Assembly (NCBI GenBank): GCA_016872795.1
Contig: VGYZ01000001.1
Coordinates: 1-64,000, forward strand
Length of the DNA stretch: 64,000 nt
Direction: 5' to 3'
From: Planctomycetota bacterium
GTDB taxonomy: Bacteria; Planctomycetota; UBA1135; GCA-002686595
Part shown: positions 19,336 through 43,391 of the stretch, piece by piece
How the letters are laid out: each line of letters opens with the position of its first letter
How positions within the stretch are numbered: position 1 is the stretch's first letter
The notes under the pieces: model-generated
Seen by the model: the letters and a program-made list of their open reading frames with translations, nothing else
Databases searched by the model: none
What the model was told of the DNA's origin: nothing
Translations under genes and position numbers: made by a program

Positions 19336-20721
19336 TCAGGCGACGAGGCCGAGCTGGCGCCAGAGCTTCATCTTGTTGGAGAGCGTGCGTGCGCTCACGC
19401 CCATGCGCCGCGCGGCTTCCGTCTTGTTGCCGCCGGTCGAGGCGAGCGTCTCGAGGATCGCCTCACGCTCGATGTCCGCGAGCGGACGGTTGGCGAGCGA
19501 CGCCGGCGCGACCGGGGTCGACGCGGCACCGCCCGGCAACACGCTGACCGGTCCGGTGGCGGCGCCGAAGGCGATGTCGGTGGGCTCGATCATCGTGCCC
19601 TGGCTCAACACGACCGCGCGCTGCAGCACATTCTCGAGCTCGCGCACATTGCCCGGCCACGGCCACTGGAGCAGCTTCTGCTCGGTGGCCGCCGAGAGCG
19701 CGAGCTCGTTGAGGCCGTGCGCGCGGGCGAAGTGCGCAAGGAAGTGGCGCGCGAGCGGCAGCACGTCGTTGGAGCGCTCGCGCAGCGGCGCGACGTGGAG
19801 CGGCAGAACATGGAGGCGGTAGTAGAGGTCCTCGCGGAAGCGACCGGCCTTGACCTCGGCGGCGAGGTCGCGGTTGGTGGTCGCGATCACGCGCACATCG
19901 ACCTTGATCGTCGCCGTGCCGCCGACGCGCTCGAACTCCTCTTCCTCGAGCACGCGCAGCAGCTTGGCTTGCAGCGCCGGCGAGATCTCGCCGATCTCGT
20001 CGAGCAGCAGCGTGCCGCCGTCGGCGAGCTCGAAGCGGCCCTCGCGGCTCTTGATCGCGCCCGTGAAGGCGCCCTTTTCGTGGCCGAAGAGCTCGCTCTC
20101 GAGCAGGTTCTCGGAGAGCGCCGCGCAGTTGACGCGCACGAACGGCGCGCTTGCGCGGTTCGACTCCTGATGGATCATCTGGGCGATGTGCTCCTTGCCG
20201 GTGCCGCTCTCGCCGGTGACGAGCACCGTGCCCTTGCTCTTCGCGACGCGCTGCGCCGAGTGCACCGTCTCCTGCATGGTCGGGCTCTCCGCGATCGTGC
20301 GCGAGCCCGCGCCGAGCACTTCTTGGCGCAGGTACTCGTTCTCGCGCTCGAGCTTCGAGGTGCGTTCGATGCGCTGCAGCACCAGCTGCAGCGTGTCGGC
20401 GGTGCAGGGCTTCATGAGGAAGTCCACCGCGCCACGGCGCATGGCCTGCACGGCCGTCTCGACCGTGCCGTGCGCCGTGATCACGACGACCGGCAGACCC
20501 GGCTTCTCGTTCTTCAGGCGCTCGACGAGCTGCAGGCCGTCCGAACCCGGCATGCGCAGGTCGGTCAGCACGATGTCGGGGCTCGTATTGCGTACTTGCT
20601 CGAACCCCTCGTTGCCGTCGCGGGCGACCGCGACCTGGAAGCCGAGGCTCTTGACCGCCTCGACGAGGAACTGGCGGGACAGGTTGTCATCGTCGACGAC
20701 AAGGATCTTCTGGATAGACAT
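19336..20721 (-). CDS. sigma-54-dependent response regulator, FlrC/FleR-like
   Basis: A 461-residue NtrC-family activator read from ATG at 20721. The receiver domain (residues about 4-118) has the acidic pair DDD, the phosphoacceptor Asp in [14 protein letters not shown] near residue 53 and the Lys in DFLMKP. The AAA+ domain (about 140-375) has Walker [11 protein letters not shown], the sigma-54-contact loop [14 protein letters not shown] and Walker [15 protein letters not shown] Fis-type helix-turn-helix closes it ([32 protein letters not shown]). All catalytic motifs are intact. By position after an FlrB-like kinase and before flgB, it should activate middle flagellar genes with RpoN. Confidence 0.92.
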
Positions 20722-20725
20722 GTCT

Positions 20726-21919
20726 TTAGTTGCGGAAGGGAAGATGGAGGCGCACTTCTGCGCCCCCAAAGGGGGATGGAAGGGACGAAATCTCGACGCG
20801 ACCGCCGTGGAGCACGGCGATGCGCTGGACTAGCGCGAGCCCGAGGCCGGTGCCTTCGGCGCGCGTGGTGAAGAACGGCTCGAACACGCGGCGCGCCAGC
20901 TTCTGCGAGATGCCAGGGCCGGCATCCTGCACGCGCGCGACCACTTCGTCGCCCTCGCGCGCGATCGCGAGGTGCACGCGACCGCCTCGGGGCTGAGCCT
21001 GAATCGCGTTGGCGAGCAAGTTCCGCAACGCCTGACGGAGCTTGATGCGATCGCCGGAGAAAGTCGGGCAATCGACCGTGGTCGTGAGCTCGACGGGGCA
21101 CACTCCATCGCGCTCGGCGCCGAGGCGTGCGAGGCGCAGGGCCGCGCGCGCGAGCTCGTGCGCGTCGACCGAGTCGAGCGCGAGTTTGTCGGGGCTCGCG
21201 AGCGACATCATGCTCGCGAGAATCGTCTCGGCTTCGGCGGAACCCTCGACGATCATGCCGGCCCAGCGGCGCTCGTTGCTGCCCTCCGGAAGACGCGGCG
21301 CGAGCATCTCGGCGAAGCCCTTGACCGCCATCATCGGGTTGCGCAGTTCGTGCGCGATGCCGCTGGCCATGTCGCCCATCGCCGTGAGCTTGTCCATGGC
21401 GTGGAGGCGCTCGGAGAGCTCGACCACGCGCGTGCGATCGTCGAGGATCTCGACCGTGCCGGCAGGTTCGCCGCCGGCGCGCAGGTCGCGTGCGACCACC
21501 GAGCGCCGCGAGGCCACGACGCGGCGCGAGCCGTCGGGGCGCACCGCTTCGTGCTCGATCCACTCGTCGTCACGCCCGTCGAACTCCGTCGACTCGCGAC
21601 CGAGAACCGCGCTCTCGTCCACGCCGAGCACGACGAGTGCCGCGGCGTTGGCGCGCACGATGTGACCGTCGGCGTCGCGCACGAGCACTCCTGTGGGGAG
21701 CGCGGCGAGCACCGCTTCGAGGCCGGCCTTCACTTCGTCGAGCTCGGCGACCTTGCGCGCGAGCTCGCGGTTGGCGACGGCGAGCTCTTGCTCGACGCGC
21801 CGCGCGCGCTCTTCCAGCGAGCGGTAGCTCGTGGTCAGGCTGGCACCGAGGCTCTCGAGGTCGCGCATCGCGCGCTCGAGGTCGAGCTCCGGCAGTTGCT
21901 GCTGGCTCGCGGGCGTCAC
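20726..21919 (-). CDS. cytoplasmic PAS histidine kinase, FlrB/FleS-like
   Basis: A 397-residue kinase read from GTG at 21919 (GTGA overlap with the gene before it). It has an N-terminal coiled coil (about 10-65), a PAS domain (about 65-170, LEAVLAALPTGVLVRDADGHIVRANAAALVVLG), a HisKA H-box GDMASGIAHELRNPMMAV near residue 188, and a HATPase domain with NLLANAIQA, VQDAGPGIS and GTGLGLALV. No membrane helix is seen, so it senses a cytoplasmic cue, perhaps assembly of the export gate as proposed for FlrB and FlgS. It lies 4 bp before the cognate regulator. Confidence 0.9.
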   Translation of the reverse strand: MTPASQQQLPELDLERAMRDLESLGASLTTSYRSLEERARRVEQELAVANRELARKVAELDEVKAGLEAVLAALPTGVLVRDADGHIVRANAAALVVLGVDESAVLGRESTEFDGRDDEWIEHEAVRPDGSRRVVASRRSVVARDLRAGGEPAGTVEILDDRTRVVELSERLHAMDKLTAMGDMASGIAHELRNPMMAVKGFAEMLAPRLPEGSNERRWAGMIVEGSAEAETILASMMSLASPDKLALDSVDAHELARAALRLARLGAERDGVCPVELTTTVDCPTFSGDRIKLRQALRNLLANAIQAQPRGGRVHLAIAREGDEVVARVQDAGPGISQKLARRVFEPFFTTRAEGTGLGLALVQRIAVLHGGRVEISSLPSPFGGAEVRLHLPFRN

Positions 21920-22722
21920 GGGCGCTTCTCCTTGCCGGCGCTGCGCTTCTCGAAGTCGACACGCCACTGCAGGAATTCGAGGTCTTCGCGAGCGCGCTCG
22001 GCGAGCGCGCCGGCGTCCTTGCGCGCGAGCACGGCTCCGAAGCCGGCGATGGCGTCGGTATCTCGTCCGAGCTTCTCGAGCGTGCGCGCGCGCCAGTACG
22101 AGCACTCGATGTCGTCGAGCCGCAGCTCGAATGTTGCGAGAGCTTCGGCGTAGCGGCCCTGGCGGTAGCAGGCGCGGCCGAGGTGCAGCGCGTCGGCGTA
22201 GTAGCCCGCCTGCTCGAAGGAGCGAGCTGCGCCACTCGTCGGCGTCGGAGCGGTCGTGTCCTGCTCGCGGGGTGCGCTGGCGACCGTGCTGACCGCCAGA
22301 CGCGCACGCAGCGCATCGTCGAGGCCCGTCGTCGCGGGAGCGTCGTTCGTCACCGCGCTGGGCGGGCCGGTCGGCGCGGTTGCGGCCGGCAGTCTGTCGG
22401 CCAGTTCGGCGTTCTCGAGGCGCTCCGCATCGCCCTGCAGGCGCGCGATGTCATTGCGCAGCGTGTCGAGCAGTGCATCGCGCGCGCCGGGCTTTCCGGC
22501 GGGCGTGGGCAGCGCAGCCTCCGTGGCGGCGATCACGGTCGGGATCGCCGTTGCATCGCCGCTCTGCAGGCGCTGCTCGACCGCGGCCAGCTGGTCGAGC
22601 GCCTTGAGCGTGCGCTGCAGCGTGGCCTCGAGCGAGTCCTCGCCGCCGGAGCCGAGTGTCACGGCCGGGACCACGAGCAGCGTGGCCAGGCCGAGGTTGA
22701 GCGCGTAGTTGAACTTCAACAT
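21916..22722 (-). CDS. secreted or anchored tetratricopeptide-type protein, unknown role
   Basis: A 268-residue protein read from ATG at 22722 (TGATG coupling with the gene upstream); the track start lies in that gene. It has a short N-terminal hydrophobic segment (about residues 4-24, FNYALNLGLATLLVVPAVTLG), a charged helical part, a low-complexity Ala/Thr/Pro linker (about 125-180), and a C-terminal TPR-like pair (AGYYADALHLGRACYRQGRYAEALATFELRLDD and WRARTLEKLGRDTDAIAGFGAVL). I do not recognise a named family. It is wedged between a TPR/STN protein and the FlrB-like kinase, and the coupling suggests a joint role in flagellar assembly or its sensing. Confidence 0.75.
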   Translation of the reverse strand: MLKFNYALNLGLATLLVVPAVTLGSGGEDSLEATLQRTLKALDQLAAVEQRLQSGDATAIPTVIAATEAALPTPAGKPGARDALLDTLRNDIARLQGDAERLENAELADRLPAATAPTGPPSAVTNDAPATTGLDDALRARLAVSTVASAPREQDTTAPTPTSGAARSFEQAGYYADALHLGRACYRQGRYAEALATFELRLDDIECSYWRARTLEKLGRDTDAIAGFGAVLARKDAGALAERAREDLEFLQWRVDFEKRSAGKEKRP

Positions 22723-24859: not shown

Positions 24860-24970
24860 GTCGTCCAGAGAGTTCGACCGTGGACGATTTTTCCTTGAAG
24901 CGAGGAATGGCTACCCCGGCAGGTTCTTCCTGAATCAGGGAAGGCCGTCCCGCCCTCTGCCCTGCCCCGC

Positions 24971-25795
24971 TCAGTCTGCGCGCGAGACGATGCCGTAGGC
25001 GCGCAGCTTGAGGTGCAAGGTGGCGCGGTGCAGCCCGAGCACGCGAGCGGCTTGGCTGCGGTTGCCGCCCTGCTCCTCGAGCACCCGGCGGATCAACAGC
25101 TCCTCGACTTCGCGCAGGGAGCGAGCCTCTACCGTGAGCGCGCTCCCCGCGGGCTCGTCGCGCTCCGGTCGTGAGAGCAGGTGGTGCGCCAGAAGCGTGT
25201 CCGAGTCGCACACGAGCGCCGCGCGCCCCACGAGCCACACGACCTCGTGTTCGTTGCCGGGCCAGTCGTGCGCGAGGATGTGCCGTTGCGCACAGGCGCC
25301 GAGGCGCGCGTGTGGAAGTTCCTTCGCCAGCACTTCGAGCGCGAGCTCGAGCGCCTCCTGCGGCCGCTCGCGCAGGGGCGGGATCGAGAGCGCGAGTCCG
25401 TTGAGCCGGTAGAGCAGCTCCTCGCGCAGCGCCTTGCGCAGCCGCTCCGGCGGCGTGGGCAGCGTGGCGATCACGCGCGCCGCAGGGCGCGCGAGCAGCG
25501 CGTGTGCGAAGGCAGCCTGAGCGGCGTCGTCACAGTACTCGACGCGCTCGAGCAAGAGCGTCCCGCCACGCGCCTCGACGAGCGCCGTGCTCGGATTGGC
25601 GCCCCGTTCGCGCCGCGCATCGACATGCACGAACGGTGCGGCCGCGCGCGGCGAGAGCGCGTGGATCTCTCGGGCGAGCTCGAGCGAGGGCGTGCCCGGC
25701 GGAGCCACGATGAGCACGGACGAGCTCGACGAAGCCGCGGCACGCGCGGCGTGGACACGCAATTTCTTCCAGCTGCTGCCGCTCTCGCTCGCCAT
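24971..25795 (-). CDS. degenerate sigma-54-activator-like protein with intact Fis-type HTH
   Basis: A 274-residue protein read from ATG at 25795 (AGGAG at good spacing; the track start at 26143 lies antisense to flagellin 1). The layout follows the AAA+ core of an NtrC-type activator without a receiver domain. Where Walker A should be it reads VAPPGTPSLELAREI (no GK). The region with ELFGH...GAFTGA is deleted, and Walker B reads GGTLLLERVEYC instead of LDE. Later parts (ELLYRLNGLALSIPPLRERPQ, HDWPGNEHEV) are well kept, and the C-terminal Fis-type HTH is intact (LLIRRVLEEQGGNRSQAARVLGLHRATLHLKLRAYGI). ATP hydrolysis and sigma-54 contact are not expected. It likely binds DNA near the divergent flagellin promoter. 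Confidence 0.8.
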   Translation of the reverse strand: MASESGSSWKKLRVHAARAAASSSSSVLIVAPPGTPSLELAREIHALSPRAAAPFVHVDARRERGANPSTALVEARGGTLLLERVEYCDDAAQAAFAHALLARPAARVIATLPTPPERLRKALREELLYRLNGLALSIPPLRERPQEALELALEVLAKELPHARLGACAQRHILAHDWPGNEHEVVWLVGRAALVCDSDTLLAHHLLSRPERDEPAGSALTVEARSLREVEELLIRRVLEEQGGNRSQAARVLGLHRATLHLKLRAYGIVSRAD

Positions 25796-25982
25796 GGGCT
25801 GACTCCTATTGAACAGGCCGCCGCGCGCGAGTGCGCGCACCCAGTGAGAGGAATTTCTCCCCGAGCGCTTCAGGGATCGCCTGCTCCTCCGAGAACCGCT
25901 CCGTGCTCGCCAGCGGGATTGGACCGCACGGGCACGGAACACACAGCGACCCCAACAACCCTCAGCACAGGAAACAGGAAAC

Positions 25983-26807
25983 ATGGGCCTCCGAGTCAAC
26001 ACGAACATCGCCTCGATGAATGCACAGCGGAACCTCGGTTCCGTCAGCACGCGCCTGATGGGCAACTTCAAGCGCCTCTCGAGCGGCTTGCGCATCTCGA
26101 CCGCGTCGGACGACGCCGCCGGCCTCGGCATCAGCGAGCGCATGCGCTCCCAGATCCGCAGCTACGGCGCGGCGCAGCGCAACGCTCAGGACGGCATCTC
26201 GCTCGTCCAGACCGCGGAAGGCGCGCTCAACGAAGTCAACAGCATCCTGAACCGCATGCGCGAGCTGTCGATTCAGGCCGCGAACGGCACGCTCTCGAAC
26301 GCGGACCGCGCGACGCTCGACACCGAGTACCAGGAGCTGATCAACGAGATCGATCGCATCTCGACCACCTCGACATTCAACGGCGTGCAGCTGATCGATG
26401 GCACGACGACTTCGCTCGACCTGCAGGCCGGCATCAACTCGAGCGAGGTGATCACGGTTTCGCTGCAGGACGCGACCGCCACCGCGCTCAGCCTCTCGGG
26501 TCTGACGGTCGGCACGCCCTCGGGTGCCTCGGCCGCGCTCGCGGTGATCGATGCTGCCGTCGACCTGGTCACGACCGCTCGCGGCGCGCTCGGCTCGGCC
26601 CAGAACCGCCTGCAGTCCGCGATCTCGTCGATTGCGAACGCCTCGGAAAACCTCGCCGCCGCCGAGTCGCGCATCCGCGATGTCGATATCGCGACCGAAA
26701 CCGCGGACCTCACCCGCAACACGATCATGCAGCAAGCCGCGGTCGCCATGCTCGCGCAGGCGAATGTGCAGCCGCAGCTCGCGCTCAGCCTCCTCCAAGG
26801 CCGTTGA
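25983..26807 (+). CDS. fliC: flagellin (copy 1)
   Basis: A 274-residue flagellin consisting only of the D0/D1 core. The N-terminal domain is [18 protein letters not shown] to [37 protein letters not shown], and the C-terminal domain is [49 protein letters not shown]. The variable outer domains are almost absent (about 60 residues between). The ATG is preceded by ACAGGAAAC. It is the most divergent of four tandem copies and the first plus-strand gene after the divergence point. It is followed by a strong hairpin, so it is probably a separate transcript. Confidence 0.97.
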   Translation: MGLRVNTNIASMNAQRNLGSVSTRLMGNFKRLSSGLRISTASDDAAGLGISERMRSQIRSYGAAQRNAQDGISLVQTAEGALNEVNSILNRMRELSIQAANGTLSNADRATLDTEYQELINEIDRISTTSTFNGVQLIDGTTTSLDLQAGINSSEVITVSLQDATATALSLSGLTVGTPSGASAALAVIDAAVDLVTTARGALGSAQNRLQSAISSIANASENLAAAESRIRDVDIATETADLTRNTIMQQAAVAMLAQANVQPQLALSLLQGR

Positions 26808-26842
26808 TTCAAGACGATCCGGCCCCTGTGCCGGTCGCTGTG

Positions 26843-26867
26843 GGGGAGGGCCTCGTTGGCCCTCCCC
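26843..26867 (+). terminator. hairpin after flagellin 1
   Basis: A perfect 10-bp stem, GGGGAGGGCC and GGCCCTCCCC, with loop TCGTT lies 35 bp after the stop. Only a C-run follows, and a short T-run comes later, so it may work as an mRNA-stabilising or partial terminator. Confidence 0.5.
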
Positions 26868-27117
26868 GTCCCCCCCAAAGCTCTTTTCAGTAGTTCTGAC
26901 CGAACGAGCAGCTCCGCGAGCGCGCCCCATCGCGCGCCGCGCGCAAAGACGCTTCCCCTCCGCTCCGCCTCGCGCGACGAGCGTGCCTTTGCACGCGAGC
27001 GCAGCTCGCGCCGCGCGCTCACCCAAAGCTCGCGCGATCGGTCCTCTCCCGCACTCCTCCGCGGTGTGTCCAGCCGCGGAGGTGGTTCCGTAACCCCAGC
27101 TACAAAAGGAAACTGCA
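26868..27117 (+). other. flagellin 1-2 intergenic region with 5' leader hairpin
   Basis: Together with the preceding hairpin, this gap between flagellins 1 and 2 totals 310 bp. No coding frame is convincing. The motif CCAAAGCTC appears twice, at about 26874 and 27023. A 9-bp stem (CCTCCGCGG/CCGCGGAGG, 9-nt loop) at 27056-27082 ends about 35 bases before the ATG of flagellin 2. That places it in the likely leader, upstream of the AAAAGGAAAC ribosome binding site. No GCCGATAA-type promoter is visible. Confidence 0.5.
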
Positions 27118-27939
27118 ATGGGACTTCGTGTCAATACCAACATCGCCGCCCTGACGGCTCAACGCAACCTAGCTGGCGTCAGCCAGCGTCTCTCCGGCAA
27201 CTTCGGTCGGCTCTCGAGCGGCATGCGCATCGCGACGGCCGCCGACGATGCCGCTGGCCTGGGCATCTCCGAGCGCATGCGCGCTCAGGTGCGCTCGCTC
27301 AATGTCGCCAGCCGCAACGCGCAGGACGGCGTCTCGCTCGCGCAGACCGCCGAAGGCGCGCTGCAGGAAGTCAACAACAACCTGACGCGCATGCGTGAGC
27401 TGGCGATTCAGGCCTCCAACGGCACCCTCACCACGCAGGACCGCGCCACGATCGACACCGAGTTCCAGGCGCTGATCACCGAGATCGACCGCGTCTCGAG
27501 CCAGACCACCTTCAACGGCGTGAACTTGCTCGACGGCACGACGACCACGCTCAGCGTGCAGGTCGGCAACAACTCCGGCGAGACGATCACGGTCAGTCTG
27601 GCCGACATGACCGCCACGGCGCTCAGCATCGCCGGCGAGGACGTGGCGACGGCCGCAGGCGCCGCCACCGCGCTGACCGCGATCGATTCGGCGATCGACA
27701 ACGTCACGACGACTCGCGGCGCTCTCGGCGCCGCGCAGAACCGCCTGACGAGCGCGATCTCCTCGATCCTCAACACGCGCGAGAACCTCTCGGCCGCCGA
27801 GAGCCGCATCCGCGATGTCGATGTGGCGATCGAGACCGCGGACCTGACGCGCAACTCGATCCTGCAGCAGGCCGCCGTGAGCGTCCTCGCGCAGGCCAAC
27901 ACGCAGCCGCAGCTCGCGCTCTCGCTGCTGCAAGGCTGA
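27118..27939 (+). CDS. fliC: flagellin (copy 2)
   Basis: A 273-residue flagellin of the same short D0/D1 type: [18 protein letters not shown] to [43 protein letters not shown]. The first 24 bases (ATGGGACTTCGTGTCAATAC and on) are identical to copy 3. A stretch of about 65 bases near the end (from ACGAGCGCGATCTCCTCGAT) is also identical to copy 3, pointing to recent duplication or gene conversion. Ribosome binding site AAAAGGAAAC. Confidence 0.97.
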   Translation: MGLRVNTNIAALTAQRNLAGVSQRLSGNFGRLSSGMRIATAADDAAGLGISERMRAQVRSLNVASRNAQDGVSLAQTAEGALQEVNNNLTRMRELAIQASNGTLTTQDRATIDTEFQALITEIDRVSSQTTFNGVNLLDGTTTTLSVQVGNNSGETITVSLADMTATALSIAGEDVATAAGAATALTAIDSAIDNVTTTRGALGAAQNRLTSAISSILNTRENLSAAESRIRDVDVAIETADLTRNSILQQAAVSVLAQANTQPQLALSLLQG

Positions 27940-28184
27940 TTCCGCGCGGCGCAAGCCGCACGACGAGCACCGCGCGCCGCCTGCGCGAACCCCAGATGAG
28001 GGTCTCGGCCGGCAGCGCGTTCCAACGAGAACACCCGGGCGCCGGTCACTTCCGGCCTCTGACCGCAGGCGAGCGTTCGCAGGCGGCGGGGGCGACGCAG
28101 CGGAAGTGAAATCGAGGAGCCAGTCGCTCGGGCTTTTGACTGCCACTGCGTCACAACCCTCTTTCCAACAGGAATCGAAATATC

Positions 28185-29003
28185 ATGGGACTTCGTGTCA
28201 ATACCAACGTCGCTGCGCTCACCAGCCAGCGCAACCTCGGGGCCGTCACTGGTCGGCTCCAGGGCAACTTCGCCCGCCTGTCGTCCGGCATGCGCATCGC
28301 GACTGCCGCTGACGACGCCGCGGGCCTCGGCATCAGCGAGCGCATGCGCGCTCAGGTGCGCTCCTTCACGGTCGCGAGCCGCAACGCGCAAGACGGCGTT
28401 TCGCTCGTGCAGACCGCGGAAGGCGCGCTACAGGAAGTCAGCAACAACCTGACCCGCATGCGCGAGCTGGCTGTTCAGGCTTCCAACGGCACTCTGACCA
28501 CGGCCGACCGCGCCACGCTCGATACCGAGTTCCAGGCGCTCGTCACCGAGATCGATCGCGTCTCGAGCCAGACCACGTTCAACGGCGTGAACCTGCTCGA
28601 CGGCTCGACGACCTCGCTCAGCATCCAGGTCGGCACGGACTCGGGCGAGACGATCGGCCTGAGCCTCGCGGACACGACCTCGACGGGTCTGTCGATCGGC
28701 GCCGCGGACGTCACGACGGCCGCCAACGCCGCGAGCGCCCTTGCGACGATCGACTCGGCGATCGACAGCGTCACGACGGCCCGCGGCACGCTCGGCGCGT
28801 CGCAGAACCGTCTGACGAGCGCGATCTCCTCGATCCTCAACACGCGCGAGAACCTCTCGGCCGCCGAGAGCCGCATCCGTGATGTGGACGTTGCGATCGA
28901 GACCGCCGACCTGACTCGCAACTCGATCCTGCAGCAGGCCGCCGTGAGCGTCCTGTCGCAGGCCAACGTGCAGCCGCAGCTCGCGCTGTCGCTGCTCCGT
29001 TGA
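28185..29003 (+). CDS. fliC: flagellin (copy 3)
   Basis: A 272-residue flagellin closest to copies 2 and 4. The N-terminus is [21 protein letters not shown] and the C-terminus QLALSLLR is slightly shorter than in copies 1 and 2. The central 60 residues ([31 protein letters not shown]) are the only variable part. AACAGGAATC precedes the ATG at a wider spacing than in the other copies. Confidence 0.97.
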
Positions 29004-29526
29004 TCCCGAGCAGGACGAGACAAGGAAGGGTTCCCGCGCTTCTCGCGCTCCCCCCCGGCGGGAACCGGTCCCAGCCCGAAACCCTGGCTATTCGTAGCTG
29101 AGGGGGCCAGGAAGGACGGCTCGAAGGGCACCGCACCGCGCTCGCGCGGCGCGGTGCCCGCGCCATTTTTTCGCGCCCCGCGAGCGGGCCTGCCCCTGGA
29201 AATGGGATTTCCTGTCGAGCGCGAAACGACGCTTCCGAAGGAACGCCTGCCGCGAGGCATGCCGCAGTGCGCACGAGAGTGCGGGCGCGCGGGATGACGA
29301 GCGGCACCACGCCACGGTTTCGCGCTTCGCCCCCATGGGTGGGGAGGGGGTCGAAGCTGCGGCGGGGTCCCGGACGCCATCGGGCCTCCGGAGCGCTGCC
29401 CATCCCGCGAGGTTTCCCCGTGCCAGCGAGAGCTCGCGGTTCCTAAGGGAAGGGCTGTCTCCGGTCGGAGCGGTGCGATGTCTCCTCATCACCACGGACC
29501 GCCAACCCCCAAAGGAAACCAGTCAC
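29004..29526. other. 523-bp flagellin 3-4 intergenic region
   Basis: The longest gene-free stretch in the flagellar locus. It holds a 9-bp-stem hairpin at 29029-29066 (GGTTCCCGC/GCGGGAACC), a stronger terminator at 29126-29171, and then about 350 bp with no good ORF. The track ORF upstream of flagellin 4 in this gap lacks any recognisable motif. The region shortly before copy 4 contains CCTAAGGG and CCGGTCGG at FliA-like spacing, but the match is poor. Copy 4 is therefore probably transcribed from its own promoter. Confidence 0.5.
29126..29171 (+). terminator. terminator after flagellin 3
   Basis: The stem GGGCACCGC/GCGGTGCCC has an inner GC-rich part and is followed after a few bases (GCGCCA) by a run of six T. 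It lies about 120 bp after the flagellin 3 stop. Confidence 0.7.
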
Positions 29527-30345
29527 ATGGGTCTTCGAGTCAACACCAATGTCGCCGCGCTCACCAGCCAGCGCAACCTCGGCGCCGTCAGCAGCCGCCT
29601 ACAGGGCAACTTCGCCCGTCTCTCGTCGGGTCTTCGCATCGCCACCGCTGCCGACGACGCCGCCGGCCTCGGCATCTCCGAGCGCATGCGCGGTCAGATC
29701 CGCAGCCTCACCGTCGCGAGCCGCAACGCGCAGGACGGCGTCTCGCTGGCGCAGACCGCCGAAGGCGCTCTGCAGGAGGTCAGCAACAACCTGACGCGCA
29801 TGCGCGAGCTTGCGGTGCAGGCTTCCAACGGCACACTGACCACCGCCGATCGCGCCACGCTCGACACCGAGTTCCAGGCGCTGGTCACGGAGATCGACCG
29901 TGTCGCCGCACAGACGACATTCAACGGCGTCAACCTGCTCGACGGCTCGACCACGAGCCTCAACATCCAGGTCGGCATCGACTCGGGCCAGACGATCGGG
30001 CTCTCGCTCTCCGACACGACGGCCACGGGCCTCTCGCTGGGCTCGCTGTCGGTGACGAGCTCCGCGAACGCGTCGACGGCGCTTTCGGCCATCGATACCG
30101 CCGTCGACTCGGTGACCGCCGCCCGCGGCACGCTGGGCGCGCAGATGAACCGCATGACGAGCGCGATCTCGTCGATCCTGAACACGCGCGAGAACCTCTC
30201 GGCCGCCGAGAGCCGCATCCGCGACGTCGATGTCGCCACGGAGACGAGCGACCTGACGCGCAACTCGATCTTGCAGCAAGCTGCCATCAGCGTACTGTCG
30301 CAAGCCAATGTCCAGCCGCAGCTCGCGCTGCGCCTGCTGGTCTAG
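29527..30345 (+). CDS. fliC: flagellin (copy 4)
   Basis: A 272-residue flagellin read from ATG at 29527 (AAAGGAAACC upstream); the track's 336-residue ORF adds an unsupported leader. The N-terminus [21 protein letters not shown] is identical to copy 3. The end differs from all others: QPQLALRLLV instead of ALSLL(QG). The extreme C-terminus packs in the filament core, so the Ser-to-Arg change may matter for assembly order or chaperone contact (inference). It is followed by a long hairpin and the FliA promoter of fliD. Confidence 0.97.
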   Translation: MGLRVNTNVAALTSQRNLGAVSSRLQGNFARLSSGLRIATAADDAAGLGISERMRGQIRSLTVASRNAQDGVSLAQTAEGALQEVSNNLTRMRELAVQASNGTLTTADRATLDTEFQALVTEIDRVAAQTTFNGVNLLDGSTTSLNIQVGIDSGQTIGLSLSDTTATGLSLGSLSVTSSANASTALSAIDTAVDSVTAARGTLGAQMNRMTSAISSILNTRENLSAAESRIRDVDVATETSDLTRNSILQQAAISVLSQANVQPQLALRLLV

Positions 30346-30413: not shown

Positions 30414-30470
30414 GTTGCATCGATCGGGGCCGAAAATCTTTCCGACCTGAAAGGCCTGCGTGGAACGCGT

Positions 30471-30498
30471 TAACGCGCTTTCGCGCTCGCGCCGATAA
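30471..30498 (+). promoter_or_regulatory. FliA (sigma-28) promoter of fliD
   Basis: An exact -10 element GCCGATAA at 30491-30498 is preceded, 16 bases upstream, by TAAC (consensus TAAA with 15 bases). It lies 38 bp before the fliD ATG. The window also encodes a FliA homologue. This exact -10 octamer recurs before flgM, which supports both. Confidence 0.85.
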
Positions 30499-30535: not shown

Positions 30536-32011
30536 ATGACACCCCCGATCAGCATTGGCGGCCTCGGAAGCGGCCTCGACACGCGCGCGATCATCGACGC
30601 ACTGCTCGCCGTCGAGCGCGTACCCATCCAGCAGATGGAGTCGAAGAAGAAGGGCCAGCAGGACAAGATCAACCTGCTCAACACCTTCCGTGGCAAGGTC
30701 GATGCGCTGCGCACCAAGGCCAACGCGCTCGGCTCGCTCGCGGGGTTCCTCGCCTTCAAGGTGAGCCAGAGCGAAGAGGGTCTGGCCACGATCTCGGCGA
30801 GCGGCTCTGCCGTGGCGGCCTCGCACTCCCTCGTCGTGCAGCAAGTCGCGACGACGGACCGCTGGGCCTTCAACGGGGTGAGCGATCCCGAGACGGACCT
30901 CGGCACGGTCGACGGGCAGACGGTCTCGTTCACCTACGACGGCCAGACCTACACCGCGACGATGGATGCGGCGACATCGTCCCTCAACGACATCGCGTCG
31001 AAGATCAACACGGTCGCGACAGACAAGGTCGCGGCCACGGTCGTCAACGCGGGCACGAGCGCGGCTCCGAGCTGGCAGCTCGTGCTCACGGCCAAGCAGA
31101 CGGGCAAGGACTATCGCATCGGCTCGCTCGCCACGACAGTCACCAACCTCTCGATCAACGCGGCGCCGCCCAACGCGCAGGGCGTGGCGCAGAGCTCCAA
31201 CAACATCAGTGTCGGGAGCAACGCGATCGCCGTGATCGACGGCTTGACCGTCGAGCGCACCGACAACGACTTCGACGATGTGATCACGGGCGTCTCGATC
31301 TCGCTGCTCGACGCGGATCCTGCGAAGACCGTGCAGTTCACCGTCGAGGCCGACAAGGCCGCGGTGAAGGGCAAGGTGAAGGAGTTTGTCGACGCCTACA
31401 ACGAAGTCGCCAAGTTCGTGCGCGACCAGAACAAGTACGACCTCGAGAAGGGCCCTGGGGGAGCGCTGTTTGGCGAGACGGCGCTCAAGACGATCCAGCG
31501 CACGCTCTCGGGCGTGCTCTTCGGGCAATCGGCGGCTCAGGCCGCTGCGGACACCTCCGGCTACGGCACCCTGCGTCTGGTCGGCGTCGAGTCCCAGTCG
31601 GACGGCTCGCTCAAGATCAACGACAAGGTCATGGACGCGAAGATGGACGCGGACCTCGCCAAGTTCGCCGACCTGTTCGCGGACACCGACGGCTTCGACA
31701 ACATGGGCGCCACCATCGGTACGCCGCGCTACTACTTCGACATGACACCGGACACCGGCCTCGGTGACGATCTCGCGCGCGAGCTCGACAAGGTCGTCAA
31801 GAGCTATGGCGACCAGTCGGGCAACTTCTACAAGGGCGTGTTCGATGCGCGCGTCGAGACGCTCAACGCGAACATCAAGGGCATCAACGAGCGCATCGAG
31901 CAGCGCGAGCTGCGCATCGATCGCCTGCAGGAGCAGCTCACGCGCCGCTTCGCCTCGCTCGAGAGCCTGATGGCCCAGCTCCAGAGCCAGTCCGCCTACC
32001 TCAACCGCTGA
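30536..32011 (+). CDS. fliD: flagellar filament cap protein FliD
   Basis: A 491-residue protein read from ATG at 30536; the track ORF begins inside flagellin 4. The N-terminal FliD domain is ISIGGLGSGLDTRAIIDALLAVERVPIQQMESKK. The C-terminal domain includes VKEFVDAYNEVAKFVRDQNKYD near residue 285, RTLSGVLFG, and the closing coiled coil INERIEQRELRIDRLQEQLTRRFASLESLMAQLQSQSAYL. FliD caps the growing filament and folds flagellin. It is the first gene of a FliA-driven unit with fliS and the next small gene. Confidence 0.96.
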   Translation: MTPPISIGGLGSGLDTRAIIDALLAVERVPIQQMESKKKGQQDKINLLNTFRGKVDALRTKANALGSLAGFLAFKVSQSEEGLATISASGSAVAASHSLVVQQVATTDRWAFNGVSDPETDLGTVDGQTVSFTYDGQTYTATMDAATSSLNDIASKINTVATDKVAATVVNAGTSAAPSWQLVLTAKQTGKDYRIGSLATTVTNLSINAAPPNAQGVAQSSNNISVGSNAIAVIDGLTVERTDNDFDDVITGVSISLLDADPAKTVQFTVEADKAAVKGKVKEFVDAYNEVAKFVRDQNKYDLEKGPGGALFGETALKTIQRTLSGVLFGQSAAQAAADTSGYGTLRLVGVESQSDGSLKINDKVMDAKMDADLAKFADLFADTDGFDNMGATIGTPRYYFDMTPDTGLGDDLARELDKVVKSYGDQSGNFYKGVFDARVETLNANIKGINERIEQRELRIDRLQEQLTRRFASLESLMAQLQSQSAYLNR

Positions 32012-34872: not shown

Positions 34873-34891
34873 GTGTCGAAAAATACGACAC
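34873..34891. promoter_or_regulatory. palindrome in the fliO / GGDEF divergent region, candidate operator
   Basis: GTGTCG and CGACAC flank the AT-rich spacer AAAAATA in a region otherwise rich in GC, and a partial copy (CCGACACAC) follows about 20 bp downstream. It lies 72 bp before the fliO start and about 150 bp before the diguanylate cyclase. This fits a repressor or activator site for either promoter. The binding protein is unknown. Confidence 0.4.
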
Positions 34892-41532: not shown

Positions 41533-42377
41533 GCGCGCAGCCCATGTTGCACGCGCCCTTGGTGCTCGTGACCGGCGGCAAGGGCGGCGTCGGAAAGACG
41601 ACGCTGGCCGCGAGCCTCGCCGTTCAACTGCGCGCACAGGGACTGCGCACGCTGCTGTGCGATCTCGACCTCGGACTCGCCAACCTGCATGTGTTGCTCG
41701 GAATCGAGCCGCTGCACACGATCGAACAGGCCCTCGCGGACGAGTGCGCGCTCAGTGACTGCATCGTGCCGGGTCAGGGCGGCATCGATGTGCTCGTCGG
41801 CAGCAATGGCAGCGCCGCGATGGCCCAGCTCTCGCCCGACATGCGCGCTCGTCTGCTCGAGCAACTCGCCCAGGTCTCCACCGGCTACGACGTCGTGGTG
41901 GGGGACAGCGCCGCTGGGATCGGACCCGATGTGCTCGCGTTCGGTGCGCTCGCGCGCATGGTGCTCGTCGTCACCACGCCCGATCCGAGCGCAGCGGCCG
42001 ATGCCTATGGCCTGGTCAAGGCGCTCGTCGCCGAGAGTGGCGCGCGCGGGCTCGACCTGCCGACGCCGGAGCTGGTGCTCAATCAGGTGTCGGGCGCGCG
42101 CGAGGCCGAGCTCTCCGCTGCGCGGCTCGCGCAGGTGTGCCAGCGCTTCCTGACGCGCTCGCCGCGACTGGCGGGCTGGGTGCCGCGCGCTCCGCGCATC
42201 GCGGAGGCCGCGCGCCGTCGCGTTCCGTTCGCTCTGGCGGGCGGTCCCGCAGGCTCGGGCAGCGGCGAGCGCGAGTGCGTCCAGCGCCTCGCACGCCGGG
42301 TCGTTCTTGGCCTTGGGATGGAAAGCGTTTCCAGCGCCGCGGTCGGAAATCGGGCTCAAGACTGGAGCCTTTCATGA
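41529..42377 (+). CDS. flhG: MinD-like flagellar number regulator FlhG (FleN/YlxH)
   Basis: A 282-residue P-loop ATPase read from GTG at 41529 (the track start is in another gene). It has the deviant Walker A GGKGGVGKTTLAASLA, then LLCDLDLGLANLHVLLGI and GDSAAGIGPDVLAFGALA. FlhG stimulates FlhF GTPase and limits flagellar number; in some bacteria it also restrains FlrA/FleQ. Its gene overlaps both neighbours (GTGA, ATGA). Confidence 0.93.
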   Translation: MSAQPMLHAPLVLVTGGKGGVGKTTLAASLAVQLRAQGLRTLLCDLDLGLANLHVLLGIEPLHTIEQALADECALSDCIVPGQGGIDVLVGSNGSAAMAQLSPDMRARLLEQLAQVSTGYDVVVGDSAAGIGPDVLAFGALARMVLVVTTPDPSAAADAYGLVKALVAESGARGLDLPTPELVLNQVSGAREAELSAARLAQVCQRFLTRSPRLAGWVPRAPRIAEAARRRVPFALAGGPAGSGSGERECVQRLARRVVLGLGMESVSSAAVGNRAQDWSLS

Positions 42378-42650: not shown

Positions 42651-43391
42651 ATGAGCGACACCGCGACGAATCCGTATGCGGCGGTCGCGTTGGATCGCGA
42701 CAAGCTGATCCTCGATCATGTGCCGCTCGTCAAGCACCTCGCGGGTCGCATGGCCCTCGATCTCCCCGGGGGTCTCGAGCGAGACGACCTCCACGGCTGG
42801 GGCATGGTGGGCCTCGTCAGCGCAGCAGACTCCTTTGAGCCCGGTCGCGGGCTGAGGTTCTCGACCTACGCCTACTCCAAGATCCGCGGTGCGATCCTCG
42901 ACGAGCTGCGGCGCGCGGACTTCCTGCCGCGCGGACGCCGCGAGAAGGTGCGCGAGCTCGACCGCGCCGTCAGCGAGCTTTCCCGTCGCACGGGCTTCGC
43001 GCCCACGCCCGAGGACATCGCCAAGGAGCTCGGCGTCTCGCTCGACGAAGTCGACGAGATCCTGCTGGCGGCGAAGTCAGCCGGACACGCCTCGCTCGAC
43101 TCCGATGTCTCGGATGCGCTCTTCGCGCGCCTGTCCGATCCGGGAACTTCGGACCCGCAGGCGAGCGCCGAGTGGGAAGAGACCAAGGCGCTGCTCGTGC
43201 GCGCCATCGGTGAGCTCTCCTCGCAGGAGCGCACCGTCATCACGCTGTACTACGCCGAGGAGCTGCGTCTGCGCGAGATCGCGGATGTGCTCGGCGTGAC
43301 CGAGTCGCGCGTGAGCCAGATCCACACGCGCGCCCTCTACCGCCTCAATCGCGAGCTTGCGCCGCGACTGGGCTCCGCGGAACAGGAGTAG
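42651..43391 (+). CDS. fliA: RNA polymerase sigma factor for flagellar genes (sigma-28)
   Basis: A 246-residue sigma-70-family protein of the FliA/WhiG group. It shows region 2 (LAGRMALDLPGGLERDDLHGWGMVGLVSAADSFEPGRGLRFSTYAYSKIRGAILDELRRADFLPR), region 3 (GFAPTPEDIAKELGVSLDEV) and region 4 (ERTVITLYYAEELRLREIADVLGVTESRVSQIHTRALYRL). It should read the GCCGATAA promoters before fliD and flgM in this window. A GAGGAAG ribosome binding site lies before ATG at 42651. Confidence 0.96.
   Translation: MSDTATNPYAAVALDRDKLILDHVPLVKHLAGRMALDLPGGLERDDLHGWGMVGLVSAADSFEPGRGLRFSTYAYSKIRGAILDELRRADFLPRGRREKVRELDRAVSELSRRTGFAPTPEDIAKELGVSLDEVDEILLAAKSAGHASLDSDVSDALFARLSDPGTSDPQASAEWEETKALLVRAIGELSSQERTVITLYYAEELRLREIADVLGVTESRVSQIHTRALYRLNRELAPRLGSAEQE

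Follow-up and report, generated by a model that had tools for sequence, protein, structure and literature searches.

An NtrC-type regulator beside flagellin 1

What is left for an NtrC-type regulator to do at a flagellin locus once the motifs of its ATPase have gone? The question is raised by a 274-aa protein encoded in the first 64,000 nucleotides of contig VGYZ01000001.1 from a Planctomycetota bacterium (hereafter the window). Its open reading frame is genuine, and its coordinates were left unchanged. The gene diverges from flagellin 1 and lies upstream of an operon encoding intact FlrB and FlrC proteins, an arrangement described in the initial annotation and borne out by the coordinates:

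24971..25795, minus strand: P0001, NtrC-type regulator of 274 aa with a dead ATPase, divergent from flagellin 1
25983..26807, plus strand: flagellin 1
20726..22105, minus strand: FlrB-like histidine kinase
19336..20769, minus strand: FlrC-like REC-AAA+-HTH activator, intact

Four tandem flagellin genes occupy 25983-30345, from the divergence point on (at 25983, 27118, 28185 and ~29527).

Motif calls were made by aligning the 274-aa protein to the intact FlrC that the window also encodes, and this alignment upheld the reported absence of the Walker A GK, the GAFTGA loop and the Walker B Asp-Glu:

25679..25705, minus strand: degenerate Walker A, APPGTPSLE, residues 31-39 (alignment with FlrC)
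25574..25615, minus strand: place of the GAFTGA loop segment deletion, residues 61-74 (alignment with FlrC)
25538..25564, minus strand: degenerate Walker B, GTLLLERVE, residues 78-86 (alignment with FlrC)
25400..25429, minus strand: retained arginine-finger segment LREELLYRLN, residues 123-132 (alignment)
25241..25264, minus strand: sensor-II segment WPGNEHEV, Arg to His in the window species (alignment)
24995..25120, minus strand: Fis-type HTH, residues 226-267 (HTH_8, 1.4e-13; dN/dS 0.11 and 0.02)

The Walker A lysine (GxxGxGKE) is gone, GESGTGKE of FlrC having become APPGTPSLE, a degenerate segment that is nearly invariant across the four closest species. The whole segment of the GAFTGA sigma-54 contact loop is deleted, the Walker B Asp-Glu is lost (LLLDEIGE in FlrC, LLLERVE in the window protein), the sensor-I Asn is missing and there is no receiver domain (REC). 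The WPGNEHEV segment, earlier described as preserved, is indeed present, but its sensor-II Arg is lost relative to WPGNxREL; that Arg still stands in genus relatives G003, G006 and G002. Preservation of the Fis-type HTH was confirmed by a Pfam search of the 274-aa protein, which returned HTH_8 (1.4e-13), Sigma54_activ_2 (1.1e-7) and a sub-threshold AAA_lid_14. An AlphaFold2 model built with 27 aligned sequences predicted the AAA+ fold confidently (pLDDT 88), and the best PDB matches of the predicted fold were the NtrC-family AAA+ proteins NtrX, ZraR, NtrC1, FlrC, FleQ and VpsR; the window protein thus has both an AAA+ fold and a Fis-type HTH. Proteins of this kind escape searches that look for the sigma-54 domain, and a genome-wide Pfam search passed over the 24971-25795 gene.

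Conservation and selection within the genus

The gene is divergent from flagellin 1 in 7/7 genomes of the genus, the window's included. Two copies (G004 and G005) are cut by a contig end; where complete, the six other copies are 41-91% identical to the window protein, and the frame is open in every member with a complete copy. Those close relatives that bear names are metagenome assemblies of planctomycetes (M_DeepCast_65m, Erken, LaPlata), the names pointing to lakes or a reservoir. The motif losses are common to all copies inside the genus, and this genus-wide conservation rules out a local error or recent mutation. Conserved orthologues with the same losses beside flagellins, as the initial annotation had proposed to look for, were therefore found in six further genomes, while intact orthologues, which it would have taken as a sign of recent local error, were found outside the genus only.

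Compared with the two nearest species, dN/dS was 0.27 and 0.22 for the whole gene and 0.11 and 0.02 for the HTH, low values that mark a maintained protein and are not those of relaxed selection. Purifying selection on the gene makes the label "relic", given to it at first, misleading. A slowly decaying pseudogene would account for the progressive motif loss, the long branches and the loss of the whole gene in G027 described below, but we consider it very improbable given the open frames of the complete genus copies, dN/dS of 0.22-0.27 (0.02-0.11 in the HTH) and retention in at least two lineages.

Ancestry and repeated loss of the GAFTGA loop

Elsewhere in the family, in most genera, and in further families of the order, the same locus is occupied by an activator whose Walker A, GAFTGA (or GAFTGG) and Walker B motifs are all intact; the receiver domain is present in many of these and has been lost in some. 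GAFTGG stands in place of GAFTGA in many otherwise intact copies (L029, L056, L055, L026, L058, L036, L042 and L062). Outside the genus, the loop is either missing or disrupted in G010, G014, G015, G020, G022, G030, G033 and G035. The Walker A lysine persists in G033, G014 and G020 despite loss or disruption of the loop, and the Walker B acidic residues persist in G015 and, as DD, in G001; from these remnants we take the loop to be the common loss, with the Walker motifs decaying unevenly. FlrC is intact in every genome where it could be read through. In G027 (L073) the regulator gene is absent between flagellin 1 and the next operon.

The loop-less genomes fall into three groups in an RpoB tree and two groups in a FliD tree, and a single clade is rejected by both (p-AU 3e-13 and 1.5e-4, respectively). 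A single origin of the dead form is ruled out by these two trees, though the regulator's own tree places the loop-less copies together (95/96), on long branches, with mild rejection of the clades of the species tree (p 0.026 and 0.039). Long-branch pull is the likely cause of this grouping, and transfer may be an alternative one. With the RpoB and FliD trees set against the regulator's own tree, the claim is placed at its lower bound: on the RpoB and FliD trees, loss of the GAFTGA loop, usually accompanied by loss of the Walker motifs, occurred at least twice.

A GGAA-N5-TTCC palindrome upstream of sigma-28-type promoters

The palindrome GGAA-N5-TTCC is over-represented at the divergence point (score 74.0 versus 31.5 ± 3.2 for shuffles). 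A matrix built from other genomes, with the window left out, scored highest in the 64-kb window at a site preceding fliD (18.9 bits) and next highest at one preceding fliA (14.9 bits). The relevant features are as follows, with no strand given for palindromic sites:

30429..30445: best candidate operator match GCCGAAAATCTTTCCGA, 18.9 bits (0.02 expected at 18 or above), upstream of the fliD promoter
30470..30498, plus strand: sigma-28-type fliD promoter, TTAA ... GCCGATAA, near-consensus
30536..32011, plus strand: fliD
42318..42334: second-best candidate operator match ATGGAAAGCGTTTCCAG, 333 bp before fliA
42651..43391, plus strand: fliA (sigma 28)
25869..25895, plus strand: sigma-28-like box of flagellin 1, TTCA-N15-TCCGAGAA, shared by most of the family whether the regulator is dead or intact
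25846..25859: weak, imperfect palindrome GAGAGGAATTTCTC in the gap between the divergent genes, common to the closest species only
25756..25772: half-degenerate candidate operator CGCA-N5-TTCC inside the 5' coding end, weak (9.4 bits)
24916..24932, minus strand: CAGGAAGAACCTGCCGG before the flrBC operon, just downstream of the dead gene, 11.1 bits

The fliD palindrome is strong (15 or above) in 11/12 loop-less versus 7/12 other genomes, with p of 0.003 or less in each of the ten loop-less genomes tested. It is weak in G001 (9.0) and absent from the intact G012 and G025, and in G033 a strong site lies 287 bp upstream, within the preceding flagellin gene. This conservation before fliD in loop-less genomes lends indirect support to the earlier suggestion of a DNA-binding regulator. 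The half-sites of the fliA-upstream match are kept in G003, G006 and G002; conservation of this site among the closest species is limited to one position. At the divergence point itself the site is weak in the window's genus. The CAGGAAGAACCTGCCGG element is identical in G000, G003, G006 and G002 and may be a weak operator match or some other element; a GGAA-N5-TGC element occupies this place in several genomes. Two flavours of sigma-28-type -10 element occur family-wide, CCGAGAAC at flagellin 1 and CCGATAA at fliD. Two FliA/WhiG-type sigma factors were detected above cut-off in the window genome.

The strongest counter-example to a pairing of regulator and palindrome is G027, which has no gene at the locus and still has a 15.6-bit flagellin-1 palindrome, so that another protein could read the palindrome or the loss could be recent.

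In the window the centre of the fliD site lies ~70 bp before the inferred start, and the fliD sites stand upstream of the -35 element with no overlap. This placement speaks against a repressor or anti-activator that, bound to the palindrome close to fliD and flagellin 1, holds back the filament genes until a cue displaces it. Such a protein would be served by the same conserved sites and would suit a small, domain-poor DNA binder, and the GAFTGA-less NtrC of Caulobacter represses several promoters as well as its own locus (PMC10274813); we rate repression as possible, though rather unlikely. We suppose that the regulator activates and does not repress, which the varying distance between site and promoter makes a guess.

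Sigma-54 promoters and the FlrC palindrome

No canonical sigma-54 promoter was found at the divergence points of the family, whether the regulator is dead or intact, and in the window there is no canonical -24/-12 promoter at the divergence point, before fliD or before the flrBC operon. Strong sigma-54 promoters are accompanied by a different palindrome, TGTCGA-N5-TCGACA, likely the FlrC site by its association with them; GGAA-N5-TTCC is mostly absent from such FlrC-type promoters, and the recognition helices of the window regulator and FlrC differ. One FlrC-type palindrome of the window has no canonical sigma-54 promoter behind it:

34874..34890: FlrC-type palindrome TGTCGAAAAATACGACA, 23.9 bits

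It stands before the GPDLTRY operon (35017), where intact relatives have such a promoter of 13-19 bits. In intact genomes, G007 and G008 among them, both palindromes stand ahead of a sigma-54 promoter for the genes that come after the regulator. In the first 600 bp downstream of the regulator, none of the 13 loop-less genomes scanned has a sigma-54 promoter of 12 bits or more, whereas 6/15 intact genomes have one of at least 11.9 bits (Fisher p 0.018). A sigma-54 promoter follows fliD in 9/10 intact versus 0/10 dead genomes, several of the dead ones having no operon in the examined stretch; where a GPDLTRY gene was found, the promoter is present in 7/7 intact versus 0/3 dead genomes. This association of dead regulators with promoter loss draws on few independent lineages.

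These results bear on two readings that keep the window protein within sigma-54 control. The first, raised in the initial annotation as a FlrC decoy or hexamer co-subunit, would have it join FlrC rings and lend them its arginine fingers. The arginine-finger segment is indeed kept and constrained in the genus, and is kept in some genomes beyond it, and the FleQ/FleT hetero-complexes of Rhodobacter sphaeroides are a precedent (PMC7277832). However, G010 and G022 have lost the fingers and G030 and G035 part of them, the sensor-II Arg is lost in the window species, the flrBC operon promoter has no FlrC-type palindrome in the window's genus, and palindrome, HTH and motifs all differ from those of FlrC. 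A decoy for FlrC or a partnership with it is thus weakened to the point of being improbable, if still conceivable inside the genus with its retained fingers. According to the second, the protein would still be linked to sigma 54, working at altered promoters together with one RpoN copy out of two. Most of the genomes searched (G000-G050) have two matches to the RpoN (sigma-54) DNA-binding domain, and an GGAAGGAACTGCGC element with GG-N10-GC spacing precedes the 35017 operon in G000, with a similar one in G004; the protein has no GAFTGA loop, which is required for touching sigma 54 (PMC3162934), and we give this reading hardly any credence.

An ATPase-independent regulator of late filament genes

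The motif losses, conservation, selection, repeated origin, and the palindrome and its places were computed directly. That the window protein binds GGAA-N5-TTCC is suggested by elimination and by location. The reading we prefer, which in our judgement has an even chance of being right, is that the protein is an ATPase-independent DNA-binding regulator of the sigma-28 late filament genes, freed from sigma-54 work, which is left to FlrC. The ancestor would have been a REC-AAA+-HTH sigma-54 activator with its place, throughout this order of the Planctomycetota, between flagellin 1 and the flrBC operon. Its main targets in the family, the divergence point and fliD, appear to use sigma-28-type promoters, at which an NtrC-type protein would act by DNA binding only. 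Once the sigma-54 role was lost the ATPase would have been free to decay, the sigma-28 role needing DNA binding alone, so that the receiver domain and the GAFTGA loop, usually with the Walker motifs, would have degenerated in two or more lineages that retained the folded scaffold and the HTH. The DNA-reading end was apparently kept because filament genes of a different sigma factor are still under the regulator's control, and from the GGAA-N5-TTCC site ahead of fliD the regulator probably aids sigma-28 polymerase. More tentatively, and with somewhat less than even confidence, we propose that the ancestral flagellar activator already doubled at sigma-28 promoters and that, wherever the flagellar cluster lost its canonical sigma-54 promoters, it shed its ATPase and remained as an ATPase-free sigma-28 regulator, at least twice. 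Targets that never needed sigma-54 remodelling would offer a testable reason for the decay.

VpsR, TyrR, DhaR and HupR have metabolic or biofilm genes as their known targets and, unlike the window gene, do not lie at a flagellin locus. They resemble the window protein in having an activator-like scaffold with a defective GAFTGA and no dependence on sigma 54 (PMC3162934, PMC10274813), and VpsR has been reported not to need ATP (PMC3162934, PMC10274813). The GAFTGA loop is needed for sigma-54 contact (PMC3162934), and relatives without it that work independently of sigma 54 are already known (PMC10274813, PMC3162934). With its NtrC-family scaffold and lost GAFTGA the window protein belongs with this class, and the conserved palindrome stands before sigma-28-type promoters, its candidate non-sigma-54 targets. 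The NtrC proteins of Rhodobacter capsulatus and Caulobacter likewise belong to the NtrC family with GAFTGA deleted and work at non-sigma-54 promoters (PMC10274813). They keep a receiver and the nucleotide motifs they need, Walker A/B in Caulobacter and ATP binding in R. capsulatus (PMC10274813), whereas the window protein has neither Walker A nor Walker B, and the promoters proposed for it are those of sigma 28, not sigma 70. FleT of R. sphaeroides is a truncated NtrC-type flagellar protein that acts beside another activator and keeps its AAA+ domain with no HTH (PMC7277832, PMC3162934); the window protein is the reverse, and its loss of the Walker motifs and GAFTGA sets it apart from a functional AAA+ ring subunit of the FleT type. 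The family's intact orthologues resemble FlrA/FleQ and FlrC/FlbD in being REC-AAA+-HTH proteins at a flagellar locus, preceding flrBC, unlike the window protein, which has no REC, no GAFTGA and no Walker residues.

Literature searches turned up no study in which a protein of this kind serves sigma-28 promoters, which proves little. The combination of additional Walker loss, a fixed flagellin locus, repeated origin and sigma-28-type promoters appears to be new, and suggests that sigma-28 promoters can be served by NtrC-type proteins. At this one flagellar locus a graded natural series can be followed, from the full REC-AAA+-HTH activator through REC-less, GAFTGA-less and Walker-dead forms to loss of the gene.
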